This document shows positions 1,441 through 36,886 of a DNA stretch of 64,000 nucleotides, piece after piece. Within the stretch, counting starts at the first letter, position 1. Every line of letters starts with the position of its first letter. The translations under genes were made by a program, and so were the position numbers. Under the pieces are notes generated by a model, which had not been told where the DNA came from, searched no databases, and was given only the letters and a program-made list of their open reading frames with translations. Source of the stretch: Maricaulaceae bacterium EIL42A08 (GTDB taxonomy: Bacteria; Pseudomonadota; Alphaproteobacteria; Caulobacterales; Maricaulaceae); assembly GCA_024178355.1 (NCBI GenBank), contig JAMZNZ010000002.1, positions 1,221,501 to 1,285,500 on the forward strand, read 5' to 3'.

Positions 1441-1971
1441 ATGAGCAAAGATCTTCAAGCCCACTTGGACGAGCTGGCTGGCCTGCTCGTCGCGGGCAGC
1501 CCCCATGCGGTCGACCTCGGCTTTGAGCTGGACAGCATCACGCCCGGCGTCGCGGTCATTCGCGCACCCTATCGCGAAGACCTGATTGGCGATCCTGAGA
1601 CCGGCGTCATGCATGGCGGCGTGGTGACTGCACTCCTCGACCACACGGCGGGCCTGGCCGCCTTTGCCGGCTTTGGCGGCGACAAGGCGGTCGCCACCCT
1701 GGACCTGCGGCTGGATTACATGCGCCCCGCTGAACCGGGCAAGGACGTGATCGCCGAAGCCAGAACCATCAAGGTGTCCGGCCTCTTCGCCTTCGTCAGC
1801 GCGATTGCCCACGACGGCGATGCGGACGATCCCGTCGCCACGGCCCACGCCGCCTTCATGGTCTCCAAAGTCTCTGAAGCGGCGGCAGAAAAGGCCAAGG
1901 AAGACATCGCGCGCGGCGCAACGCCGATCTCCGCCCTGCCCAAGCCTGGCGAGAAAGGAGGCGCGCTATGA
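1441..1971 (+). CDS. PaaI-family hotdog thioesterase (first of two)
   Basis: Predicted 176-residue acyl-CoA thioesterase of the hotdog fold. The signature GVMHGGVVTALLDHTAG is the PaaI/YbgC-type helix with the HGG turn and a catalytic acidic residue (Asp). ATLDLRLDYMRPA is the matching beta-strand. A 30-residue charged C-terminal tail (AAAEKAKEDIARG) extends beyond the minimal fold. Its stop overlaps the start of the next gene by four bases (ATGA), so the two are translationally coupled and probably form a pair of related subunits or two enzymes acting in sequence. The substrate cannot be told from sequence. Confidence 0.88.
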   Translation: MSKDLQAHLDELAGLLVAGSPHAVDLGFELDSITPGVAVIRAPYREDLIGDPETGVMHGGVVTALLDHTAGLAAFAGFGGDKAVATLDLRLDYMRPAEPGKDVIAEARTIKVSGLFAFVSAIAHDGDADDPVATAHAAFMVSKVSEAAAEKAKEDIARGATPISALPKPGEKGGAL

Positions 1972-2378
1972 GCGATCGTCTTAGCCCGCTTCTGTCGAGC
2001 CCCTATGTCCAGCGCCTTGGCGTGCGTTTCGTTGGCCACGGCGATGAATTGACCGGCATTCTGCCCTATACTGAACAGATCGTCGGCAACCCGCTGATCC
2101 CCGCCCTCCACGGCGGTGCCATCGGCGCTTTCATGGAGATGACAGCGGCCGCAGGCCTGCTCGCCCATTCTGAACTCGCCGCCCTGCCCAAGCCCATCGA
2201 TGTGGCCGTCGACTATCTCAGACCCGGCCGCCCCGAAGACGTCTTCGCCCGCGCCGTGGTCACCCGCCAGGGCTCGCGCGTCGCCAATGTGAAGGTGGAG
2301 GCGTGGCAGGCCAAGCGGTCATCGCCGATTGCGAGCCTGCATGGGCATTTTCTGGTGAAGCCGGTCACTTCATCCTGA
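1968..2378 (+). CDS. PaaI-family hotdog thioesterase (second of two)
   Basis: A 136-residue hotdog-fold protein with LHGGAIGAFMEMTAAAG (the HGG turn, with Glu where the acid usually sits) and VAVDYLRPGRP. Spacing to the preceding paralogue is a four-base ATGA overlap. Sequence similarity between the pair is limited to the fold motifs, so this is an old duplication or a recruited partner. The last codons and TGA stop (…TCATCCTGA) are also the first bases of the palindromic repeat that follows, and the same nine bases end the GIY-YIG gene at 2845. The original C-terminus may therefore have been replaced when the repeat arrived. Confidence 0.87.
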   Translation: MSDRLSPLLSSPYVQRLGVRFVGHGDELTGILPYTEQIVGNPLIPALHGGAIGAFMEMTAAAGLLAHSELAALPKPIDVAVDYLRPGRPEDVFARAVVTRQGSRVANVKVEAWQAKRSSPIASLHGHFLVKPVTSS

Positions 2379-2379
2379 T

Positions 2380-2525
2380 GGTCCTTCGAGGCTCCCCTGG
2401 ATCAAGTCCGGGGTCACACCTCCGGATGAGGGTGAGACAGACCTCATCAATATTGGCTTGCAGCATCTCCCCCCGCCCCTCATCCTGAGGTGCTTTTGCG
2501 TCAGCAAAAGCCTCGAAGGACGCAC
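2380..2525. repeat. REPIN-like palindromic repeat, copy 1
   Basis: Two REP-type units in inverted orientation. The left unit begins GGTCCTTCGAGGCTCC and ends near GGATGAGGG at 2423-2432. The right unit begins CCTCATCCTGAGGTGC at 2479 and ends GCCTCGAAGGACGCAC at 2510. The left loop holds the palindrome CCCTGGATCAAGTCCGGGG, which belongs to a second repeat family seen near 36.3 and 36.8 kb. The right loop is the hairpin GCTTTTGCGTCAGCAAAAGC. Transcribed RNA would fold into a long hairpin between the thioesterase and GIY-YIG genes. Confidence 0.85.
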
Positions 2526-2539
2526 ACCGGGGACGCGCC

Positions 2540-2845
2540 ATAACCGCTTGGGTCTATATTCTGAAATGCTCGGATGGGTTTTACTATGTTGGCTCCCATC
2601 GCGGTGAGGATTTGGGCGTGCGCGTTGGCGAGCACCAGCTTGGCATGGGCGGATACACGTCCAGACGACGACCGGTAGAGCTGGTTTATTCTGAATGGTT
2701 TACGCTCATCACTGACGCGGTAGCGGCCGAACGCCAGATCAAGGGATGGTCAAGCGCCAAGAAAGAAGCGCTGATCGCCGGCGACTTTGAGCGGCTTCAA
2801 AGCAAGGCAAAACGACGCGGCGGCAAGCCTCGCGCTTCATCCTGA
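2540..2845 (+). CDS. GIY-YIG nuclease-domain protein, apparent ATA start
   Basis: The reading frame encodes a roughly 101-residue single-domain GIY-YIG protein of the UPF0213/YhbQ type: WVYILKCSDGFYYVGSHRG carries the paired VYI/YVG strands, R and H follow in the first helix, and AAERQIKGW holds the catalytic Glu. The domain begins immediately after codon 2540, which is ATA. The frame has no ATG, GTG or TTG between the upstream stop (2486) and the motif. GGGGA lies six bases before the ATA. An internal GTG at 2612 would delete the GIY-YIG strands. Either AUA is used as a rare start or the gene has lost its ATG. REPIN-like repeats flank it on both sides. Confidence 0.72.
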   Translation: MTAWVYILKCSDGFYYVGSHRGEDLGVRVGEHQLGMGGYTSRRRPVELVYSEWFTLITDAVAAERQIKGWSSAKKEALIAGDFERLQSKAKRRGGKPRASS

Positions 2846-2846
2846 T

Positions 2847-2987
2847 GGTCCTTCGAGGCTCCCCCGGATCAAGTCCGGGGTCGCACCTCAGGATGAGGGT
2901 AATTGAGATTATTCAACGGTTAGCCTTGCAGCCATAACCCGCCTCCCTCATCCTGAGGTGCTTTTCGAAGAAAAGCCTCGAAGGACG
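2847..2987. repeat. REPIN-like palindromic repeat, copy 2
   Basis: Same architecture as copy 1. The left unit GGTCCTTCGAGGCT, with the loop palindrome CCCCCGGATCAAGTCCGGGG, ends in GCACCTCAGGATGAGGG. A spacer of about 45 bp follows, then the inverted unit CCCTCATCCTGAGGTGC-TTTTCGAAGAAAA-GCCTCGAAGGAC. The first ~65 bp are nearly identical, in direct orientation, to the start of copy 1, so the two repeats bracket the GIY-YIG gene. It ends 18 bp before the gyrB stop codon and lies at the 3' end of both convergent genes. Confidence 0.87.
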
Positions 2988-3004
2988 TACGCCCTCAACG
3001 CGCC

Positions 3005-5416
<2,412 letters not shown>

Positions 5417-6591: not shown

Positions 6592-6702
6592 GTGCGTCCT
6601 TCGAGACGCTCGCCAAGGGCTCGCTCCTCAGGATGAGGGATGTTGAAGCTCTATGAAAACCTCATCCTGAGGAGCGCGAAGCGCGTCTCGAAGGACCCTC
6701 AC
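6592..6702. repeat. REPIN-like palindromic repeat, copy 4
   Basis: Left unit GTGCGTCCTTCGAGACGCTC with GCTCCTCAGGATGAGG; right unit CCTCATCCTGAGGAGCGC with the hairpin GCGCGAAGCGC, then GTCTCGAAGGACCCTCAC. This variant uses CGAGAC/GTCTCG arms and GGAGCG rather than GGTGC. It lies about 50 bp upstream of the SURF1 start. Confidence 0.85.
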
Positions 6703-9290: not shown

Positions 9291-9403
9291 GTGCGTCCTT
9301 CGAGGCTTTTCTAACGAAAAGCACCTCAGGATGAGGAGGATGAGTGCTTGATCTCACCCTCATCCTGAGGTGCGAGCCTTATGGCGAGCCTCGAAAGACC
9401 CTC
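9291..9403. repeat. REPIN-like palindromic repeat, copy 5
   Basis: The left unit GTGCGTCCTTCGAGGC with loop hairpin TTTTCTAACGAAAA ends in GCACCTCAGGATGAGG. The right unit CCTCATCCTGAGGTGC with loop GAGCCTTATGGC ends GAGCCTCGAAAGACCCTC. It sits exactly between the convergent 3' ends of the EAL gene and the alcohol dehydrogenase, where it could act as a bidirectional structured 3' end. Confidence 0.87.
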
Positions 9404-10526: not shown

Positions 10527-10640
10527 CTGATGGTCCTTCGAGGCCCGTTTTAGGCTCGCACGTCGAAGATGAGGTCTTCATGAAGCTCCCACTTCCCTCA
10601 TCCTGAGGAGGTCTGTCAGGACTGTCTCGAAGGACGAACG
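10527..10640. repeat. REPIN-like palindromic repeat, copy 6
   Basis: Left unit TCTGATGGTCCTTCGAGGCC… ending in a degenerate CGTCGAAGATGAGG. Right unit CCTCATCCTGAGGAGG, then GACTGTCTCGAAGGACGAAC. The loop arm CGTTTTAGGCTCGCACG is diverged. It ends 3 bp before the stop of the DUF983 gene, the last gene of the oxidase operon, and could stabilise the 3' end of that long transcript. Confidence 0.82.
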
Positions 10641-36291: not shown

Positions 36292-36304
36292 AACACTCTC
36301 ATGA

Positions 36305-36397
36305 ATTCCCGGACGCGAAGCGATCCGGGACCTCACTCAGAATTGAGTGCTTTACCTTGCCAGAGGCCCCGGATCTTCGCTGCGCTTGTCCGGGGTT
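36305..36397. repeat. Palindromic repeat pair (CCCGGA family), left of GIY-YIG gene 2
   Basis: TCCCGGACGCGAAGCGATCCGGGA (two half sites around GCGAAGCG), then the hairpin CACTCA-GAAT-TGAGTG, then the inverted partner beginning CCCCGGATCTTCGC and ending GTCCGGGG. It is a REPIN-like arrangement of a second family. The motif CCGGATCAAGTCCGG from this family is also embedded in repeat copies 1 and 2. Confidence 0.8.
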
Positions 36398-36407
36398 TAA
36401 ATAAGTT

Positions 36408-36704
36408 CTAGGTGCCGCAGACTTCTGGATAAAGACCTCGCCAGTCTGGATTGATCTTCTCAATCAAAGCCACCTTCCAGGCTCTGCGCCATTTCTTCAT
36501 GCGGCGCTCTTGCCCGGCGGCCGCATCCACATCACCGGCAGGTTCAACCCAAACCAGACGGTGACAATTATATTTCCAGGTAAAGCCACGCATTGCCCCT
36601 GAACGGTGCTCCCAAATACGTCGACAGAGATCGGCATTGGACATGCCAATGTACAAAACACCATGCGGTTTATTAGTGAGTATATAGAGATAGGCTCGGT
36701 TTAT
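36408..36704 (-). CDS. GIY-YIG nuclease-domain protein, apparent ATA start
   Basis: A 98-residue single-domain GIY-YIG protein of the COG2827 kind: AYLYILTNKPHGVLYIGMS holds the YLYI/YIG strands, LCRRIWEHR the Arg, and QERRMKKWRRAWKVALIEK the catalytic Glu, followed by NPDW. The domain begins right after codon 36704-36702, which is ATA. A TGA lies five codons above, and no ATG, GTG or TTG falls between. GGGGA sits four bases before the ATA. The next ATG (36656) would remove the first strand. The repeat pairs at 36305 and 36741 flank it, repeating the pattern at 2.5 kb. Confidence 0.75.
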   Translation of the reverse strand: MNRAYLYILTNKPHGVLYIGMSNADLCRRIWEHRSGAMRGFTWKYNCHRLVWVEPAGDVDAAAGQERRMKKWRRAWKVALIEKINPDWRGLYPEVCGT

Positions 36705-36740
36705 GAAATCCCCTCACAGGGGAGTTTCATTCAGTAACAG

Positions 36741-36810
36741 GTCCCGGATCAAGTCCGGGAATTCAATATCTTTTAAATTGAAACCCCGGACGCGAAGCGA
36801 TCCGGGGTCT
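36741..36810. repeat. Palindromic repeat pair (CCCGGA family), right of GIY-YIG gene 2
   Basis: TCCCGGATCAAGTCCGGGA (36742-36760) and CCCCGGACGCGAAGCGATCC…GGGG (36784-36807) are separated by an AT-rich 23 bp, ATTCAATATCTTTTAAATTG. The second unit is almost identical to the first unit of the element at 36305. Together the two elements bracket the GIY-YIG gene. Confidence 0.8.
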
Positions 36811-36886
36811 CTTGCCGAGTAAGGTACTGTAGATTGAAGGAGCGCCCAGCTCTTTGCTTCGCTCGGCCGGGATTTCAACGCATGTT

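Follow-up and report, generated by a model that had tools for sequence, protein, structure and literature searches.

A small GIY-YIG nuclease gene between REPIN-like repeats in a Maricaulaceae genome: a candidate copy of a minimal mobile cassette

The DNA analysed here, referred to as the window, is a stretch of 64,000 nucleotides from Maricaulaceae bacterium EIL42A08. Near its beginning a reading frame for a small GIY-YIG nuclease, of a group designated the W clade, lies between two REPIN-like elements of repeat family A (Table 1). Each of the ~140-bp elements is an inverted pair, in which the outer arms (13 nt) are perfect and the inner arms (16-17 nt) are 94% and 100% complementary, and as single-stranded DNA both fold far better than shuffled sequences. 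The initial annotation, made from the sequence alone, had described nearly identical direct repeats of about 65 bp at the two sides of the gene and had considered them as parts of larger inverted-pair elements. Both statements could be confirmed, the direct repeat extending to 76 nt at 91% identity. Since two more direct repeats continue in identical order (2457-2497/2925-2965, 41 nt, 80%; 2506-2543/2971-3008, 38 nt, 82%), one element of ~140 bp can be assigned to each side of the gene. The sequence CTTCATCCTGATG, present at 2368-2380 and 2835-2847, supplies the stop codon for the thioesterase and the GIY-YIG genes alike. A family B hairpin, CCGGATCAAGTCCGG, is nested in the family A loop at 2394-2413 (with one mismatch) and at 2861-2880. 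Family A and B cores were found less than 60 bp apart elsewhere too (C5:70557-70591 and C3:282174-282243), thus the A/B composite may itself be dispersed.

Table 1. Positions of the nuclease reading frames and of the associated repeats in the window
Feature	Position	Strand	Remarks
W-clade GIY-YIG nuclease reading frame	2540-2845	+	PF01541, E 1.4e-12
Left REPIN-like element, family A (TGAG..TCGA), two inverted hairpin units	2381-2521		DNA fold z -6.2
Arms of the left element	outer 2381-2393/2509-2521; inner 2417-2432/2477-2492
Right REPIN-like element, family A, counterpart of the left one	2848-2986		DNA fold z -10.3
Arms of the right element	outer 2848-2860/2974-2986; inner 2883-2899/2945-2961
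76-nt direct repeat, left copy	2358-2433	+	the upstream thioesterase gene ends inside it (stop codon 2376-2378)
76-nt direct repeat, right copy	2825-2900	+	91% identity to the left copy; the GIY-YIG gene ends inside it (stop codon 2843-2845)
Gene-less family A REPIN core, inverted pair	6626-6672		21-bp spacer
Gene-less family A REPIN core, inverted pair	9324-9370		21-bp spacer
Single family A core	10596-10608	+
N-clade GIY-YIG nuclease reading frame	36408-36704	-	PF01541, E 1.2e-9; ATA where a start codon is expected
Family B (CCGGATC..GATCCGG type) hairpin pair, flanking the second gene on one side	36302-36402		DNA fold z -5.6
Family B hairpins, opposite side of the second gene	36738-36878		DNA fold z -4.6

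The second GIY-YIG gene of the window belongs to a different clade, N, and, as had been suggested, it is bracketed by a different repeat family. Its matched repeats (36302-36401 and 36779-36878) agree at 71%, and the gene is enclosed by an inverted pair of 13 nt without mismatch (36302-36314/36753-36765). The two nuclease-plus-repeat cassettes noticed in 64 kb turned out to be part of a set of four: in the source genome (3.0 Mb) five genes matched PF01541, one of them a 659-aa frame which we take to be UvrC, while the four standalone genes are all bracketed by repeats. The third standalone gene, on contig C3, has family A elements on either side, and the fourth (L003, 1501-1782), located just past the window end, has a 36-nt inverted hairpin pair with one copy per side. 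In the L003 gene the YxG motif reads YCR. The bracketing repeats are dispersed, exact copies of CCTCATCCTGAGG and CCGGATCAAGTCCGG being present 52 and 29 times, respectively, in the source genome. Head-to-head pairs comprise 38 of the 52 exact CCTCATCCTGAGG cores. In the window the same core, with at most 2 mismatches allowed, was found 16 times versus 1.9 expected, and 0 of 100 shuffles reached this number. The absence of a RAYT, originally stated for the window, holds for the entire genome, where PF01797 (Y1 transposase) gave 0 matches. NCBIfam assigned no family to four proteins.

All the active site residues (Y, Y, R, H and E) are present in the W-clade frame of the window. At the position where its homologues start it has ATA, and no ATG, GTG or TTG precedes the first catalytic Tyr. 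Three of the four standalone genes of the source genome look damaged at the start, both window genes having ATA and the C3 copy an early TGA. Outside the source genome a common start codon within 15 codons was found in 180 of the 182 scored genes (two more were unscorable). The cassette of the window is therefore perhaps inactive, or its expression is very weak, and both window genes may be non-functional. ATA at the expected start occurs in L105 as well, which could mean a rare start codon or parallel decay. In the relatives each of the five GIY-YIG site residues (Tyr, Tyr, Arg, His, Glu) is conserved in 105-108 of the 108 W rows and in 65-67 of the 67 N rows; Tyr, Tyr, Arg and Glu are the catalytic residues of the GIY-YIG nuclease superfamily. 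Among proteins of solved structure, those closest in sequence belong to UPF0213 (PDB 1zg2 and 1ywl, profile match E 8e-20 and 7e-16).

The surroundings of the W-clade gene were compared using a profile built from six relatives. The best 80 of 584 relatives each contributed one locus with at most 10 kb of flanking DNA. Most of these loci are alphaproteobacterial, while 7 come from Actinomycetota, one each from Chloroflexota and Ignavibacteriota, and a few from other groups. The left and right 300-bp flanks of each gene were aligned with no motif assumed, an alignment score of at least 40 being counted as a match, and one locus with a short flank was dropped (n=79). The other genes of these loci, called by a simple longest-ORF caller, served as controls. 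Among the best 80 of 584 relatives, matched flanks were found for 56 of the 79 W-clade genes, including 7/7 Actinomycetota loci, versus 14 of the 814 control genes and 6 of the 207 controls having at least 60 bp of intergenic space on both sides; the other 23 of the 79 had no matched repeats at this score. A strict hairpin, defined as NNNNTGAG..CGAANNNN with matched ends, was present on both sides of 34/79 W genes (best 80 of 584) versus 1/843 controls and 1/212 spaced controls, and on at least one side of 48/79 versus 41/843 and 18/212; its density in the same best 80 of 584 relatives was 2.7 per kb in the flanks and 0.05 elsewhere. With a slightly looser motif, 41 of the 61 genes having a hairpin on the side of the first catalytic Tyr codon had the nearest one no more than 60 nt from that codon, and in 39 of 50 genes the nearest hairpin was no more than 50 nt from the stop codon (both for the best 80 of 584 relatives). 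The count of nuclease genes adjacent to such palindromes, which the initial annotation had proposed as a check, thus exceeds that of other genes both in terms of matched flanks and of the strict hairpin.

Within the order, matched flanks were observed for 21/36 W and 46/67 N genes among the matches listed, and for 3/7 further N genes. GIY-YIG genes of other clades from the same order had matched flanks in 3 of 17 cases, one of these being a degraded W-like gene. Strong direct repeats (score 189) stand on both sides of the L360 gene, which encodes a GIY-YIG protein of a different clade (YLKTASGRAFAKK). A phage origin was considered and rejected, as three relatives were found on viral contigs and 0/3 had matched flanks.

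The two clades can be recognised by their signatures, WVYIL..ERxIKGWSRAKK for W and VYILAS.RNGTLY.. for N. They were compared in an order set of 108 genes (among the matches listed, plus the source genome) consisting of 37 W, 67 N and 4 genes belonging to neither; this set favours genomes with both clades, and at least two of its rows (L174 = L071, L184 = L133) are common to both W sets. The W clade goes with the TGAG..TCGA hairpins of family A and the N clade with the TCATCCCGG-type hairpins of family B, also when they share one genome. Among the matches listed, motif A was present in the flanks of 21/37 W and 1/67 N genes and motif B in those of 5/37 W and 53/67 N genes, the four other-clade genes having neither A nor B; in control 600-bp blocks 0.8-1.4 kb off, A was found in 14/200 and B in 24/200. 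Motifs A and B had been composed after inspection of part of the loci, and they were re-tested on loci with previously uninspected flanks, where among the matches listed the 29 W genes had A in 17 and B in 3 cases and the 44 N genes had A in 0 and B in 31.

The same pairing was obtained without any motif. Cross-genus flank pairs reached at least 35 bits in 137/615 WW, 140/2023 NN and 10/2261 NW comparisons, these pairs not being independent, versus 4/615, 6/2023 and 10/2261 for blocks 1.1-1.4 kb away, thus the NW rate in the flanks equals that of the control. Same-clade pairs made up 334 of the 350 observed, while shuffling the clade labels inside genomes, which keeps the genome effects, gave at most 262 in 5000 trials. 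In the W clade the fraction of cross-genus flank pairs with at least 35 bits rises from 6% to 91% with protein similarity (2811 pairs, not independent). A tree built from 77 W proteins with 2 outgroups was poorly resolved, 17 of its 76 inner branches being well supported, and was not used for transfer claims. Since the bracketing is frequent and each nuclease lineage has one repeat type, these nucleases are strong candidates for the enzyme spreading the repeats.

The abundance of the repeats was examined in 150 genomes of the order by counting TCAYSCTGAGS sites, a W-clade gene being called at E < 1e-20 (29 genomes). The median was 52 sites in the 29 W-positive genomes and 19 in the other 121 (Mann-Whitney p 4e-8; permuted within families p 2e-4, within genera p 0.002). 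The expectation that repeat numbers would follow the nuclease was borne out in this respect. The relation is not strict, however: among the 121 W-negative genomes there are 11 that carry more than 60 family A sites, and a rule according to which repeats occur only where the nuclease is present had to be discarded. Loss of the enzyme after the spread, a diverged enzyme or another mobiliser could each explain these repeat-rich genomes. RAYT as a hidden mobiliser was unsupported, with 0 matches in the source genome and 2 of 11 genomes positive. One genome (G141, L199-L228) has 255 family A sites, mostly as head-to-head pairs among the matches listed, without a W gene or a RAYT. Together, the adjacency and the abundance tests support the link originally proposed between the GIY-YIG genes and the palindromes, akin to that of RAYT and REP.

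Gain or loss of the cassette could be followed at one Bradyrhizobium site beside a conserved gene, which was located in 9/9 genomes. Four of them were filled, three were bare and two were uninformative (one with 1.1 kb of unrelated, motif-free DNA, the other with a different downstream neighbour). The filled site holds a REPIN, the gene and a REP, ~630 bp, between two convergent genes, while in the bare sites (L341, L346, L347) the convergent genes adjoin and the nuclease and the repeats are both missing. At this site the gene and the repeats come or go as one unit. In B. betae, where this site is bare (L341), a nuclease gene of 88.9% identity is located at another place, L096. In two Reyranella-like genomes the same intergenic site holds a cassette in L100 and a REPIN without a gene in L111 (L111 6440-6570), and the own cassette of L111, with inverted ends, lies ~2 kb from that REPIN. 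In a congener of the window's genome (G123) the closest W gene was found at an unrelated place, bracketed again. Since congeners elsewhere share the site, movement is occasional.

The window site and that of L096 are synteny breaks and not clean insertions. The thioesterase gene and gyrB (window 1968-5407) adjoin within 1.5 kb here alone among 25 family loci, and the cassette thus sits at a rearrangement breakpoint. The thioesterase-gyrB junction was accordingly discarded as an empty site, gyrB being beside the thioesterase gene in 0 of the 24 loci of relatives (within 1.5 kb). L096 was discarded for the same purpose, as synteny breaks in 8/8 relatives (within 1.5 kb). In a related genus (L299, G009) a gene-less family A-like hairpin lies downstream of the thioesterase gene. 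At the L086 site, where the intergenic ends have diverged, no target-site duplication was seen by eye.

As to the arrangement of the repeats, the nearest hairpins are inverted around the gene in 34/49 cases for the W genes of the best 80 of 584 relatives, and in 21/24 W and 13/19 N cases in the order set (among the matches listed). Inverted ends are clearest in L003 and L111. The best-aligned left and right copies were direct in 14 and inverted in 7 cases for W, and direct in 25 and inverted in 21 for N (among the matches listed); frequent direct copies are what a REPIN-gene-REPIN arrangement would give. Family A pairs less than 80 bp apart were tail-to-tail in 46, head-to-head in 37 and in line in 27 cases (best 80 of 584).

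A mobile unit with repeat ends that are acted on by its own nuclease would be the simplest account of the cognate pairing and the joint gain. We consider it probable that the window locus represents a minimal mobile cassette of this kind, in a copy that is probably in decay, and that gene-less REPs would be spread by the nuclease as well. The cassette would consist of a ~95-aa GIY-YIG nuclease between copies of its cognate REP hairpin or REPIN. The nuclease would recognise its own repeat family and would nick or cut the repeat in a hairpin or cruciform form. Cutting would move the whole cassette as a unit in cis, and gene-less REPs and REPINs would be spread in trans, much like MITEs by an insertion sequence. 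To our knowledge, there is no precedent for transposition by a lone ~95-aa GIY-YIG domain. A broader proposal, which we put forward tentatively, is that these loci might represent a new class of minimal transposons of ~0.5-0.65 kb, REP-GIY-REP, in which the nuclease alone mobilises hairpin-ended DNA. Such a class could supply the mobiliser that is missing for the CGTC-type REPs of alphaproteobacteria; W and N would be separate enzyme-repeat lineages in it, with relatives in Actinomycetota and Chloroflexota.

The main rival assigns to the nuclease a housekeeping role, in which it would cut or resolve the hairpins and cruciforms of the repeats, either in repair or as a brake on REP number, and the adjacency would reflect co-inheritance. 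Slx1-type GIY-YIG enzymes act on branched DNA, and the UPF0213 proteins as nearest solved structures agree with such a role. The clade-specific pairing would fit a substrate-specific nuclease, and a higher REP load in genomes with the nuclease could be the need for it and not its consequence. However, the joint appearance of gene and repeats at a site that is bare in relatives is left unexplained, and so are the change of place of the gene within genera and the closeness of the repeats to it (no more than 60 nt from the first Tyr codon for 41/61 genes of the best 80 of 584 relatives). In our judgement a housekeeping role is unlikely to be the explanation. The three bare Bradyrhizobium sites bear on another alternative as well, according to which the REPs are only terminator- or insulator-like ends of a mobile gene moved by REP-REP recombination or by another enzyme: these sites have no family A hairpin to recombine with. 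A passive role of this kind would suit a repeat that contains the stop codons and forms hairpins at the gene ends, and the position of the window cassette and of L096 at synteny breaks is what recombination between dispersed repeats would give.

A generic repeat, on the other hand, would not be expected to occur as one type per clade, within one genome and across genera, or to diverge in parallel with the protein, and passive carriage seems improbable to us. The clade-repeat pairing is equally unpredicted if REPs and small accessory genes simply gather in the same insertion-tolerant intergenic regions. The REPs are indeed intergenic, and 18 of the 212 spaced control genes have a hairpin on at least one side. 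Bracketing on both sides, however, was seen in 34/79 W genes (best 80 of 584) versus 1/212 spaced controls, and bracketing is uncommon in the remaining GIY-YIG clades of this order (3/17, one of them degraded W-like); such ordinary clustering is very improbable. The clade-repeat pairing speaks against both passive carriage and intergenic clustering. If GIY-YIG nucleases are the partners of the CGTC-type REPs, a second, enzymatically unrelated REP-mobilising system would exist beside RAYT, and the spread of these repeats would be testable with a protein of ~95 residues and a short oligonucleotide. The two clades with their two repeat families offer a ready-made specificity experiment.

Several known systems resemble the proposed cassette in part. 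The UPF0213 and other small GIY-YIG proteins (1zg2, 1ywl) have the same domain and size, but they and the other GIY-YIG clades are mostly without matched repeats (3/17; 0/3 for the relatives on viral contigs). In the GIY-YIG homing endonucleases and the Penelope-type elements a nuclease is likewise tied to mobility (in part PMC1564403); here, in contrast, the flanks are REP hairpins, and in the four proteins scanned only PF01541 was matched, with no reverse transcriptase and no NUMOD. Filled and empty sites of the whole unit, as found at the one Bradyrhizobium site (4 filled and 3 bare of 9), are reminiscent of an insertion sequence or MITE. The best-aligned copies are direct as often as inverted (among the matches listed), which differs from ordinary terminal inverted repeats, although most of the hairpins nearest to the gene are inverted. 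In the open-licence PubMed Central papers searched, 'GIY-YIG' and 'REP sequences' co-occur in no paper, and no link between the two was found there among the matches listed. The accessible parts of a GIY-YIG survey (PMC1564403) and of a 2025 REP survey (PMC12306157) contain no such link, and the Bradyrhizobium REPs are described without the word nuclease in the part available of PMC5082802.

The closest parallels are the RAYT/TnpA-REP systems (REPtrons), which share with the cassette a small single nuclease gene between short palindromes scattered through the genome, frequently as inverted dimers, a repeat family specific to the enzyme clade, and a hairpin as the likely substrate. The enzyme is, however, a GIY-YIG protein (PF01541) and not an HUH Y1 transposase (PF01797), and by reading the repeats have CGTC-, TGTC- or CCTC-like heads and no GTAG tag. 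Recognition and cleavage of REP DNA by RAYT were reported (PMC3733652), while for the GIY-YIG enzymes they are predicted. By analogy, the cassette would work like a RAYT-REP system without being a member of it, since the enzyme is unrelated and the GTAG is absent. CGTC-tagged REPs occur widely in alphaproteobacteria. According to the part available of the same 2013 survey (PMC3733652), they 'apparently lack a dedicated transposase' and bracket no RAYT. The repeats described here resemble them, as judged by eye, in their TGTC/CGTC/CCTC-like heads, and also in forming dimers and in their alphaproteobacterial centre of gravity; a CCA-like tail is visible by eye in L003 and in a number of N-clade flanks, among repeats of family B. 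The head is found in family A too, where the stems are longer than the 8-9 bp given in that part of the survey (PMC3733652). In contrast to the CGTC-tagged REPs, each repeat type here has a partner nuclease.
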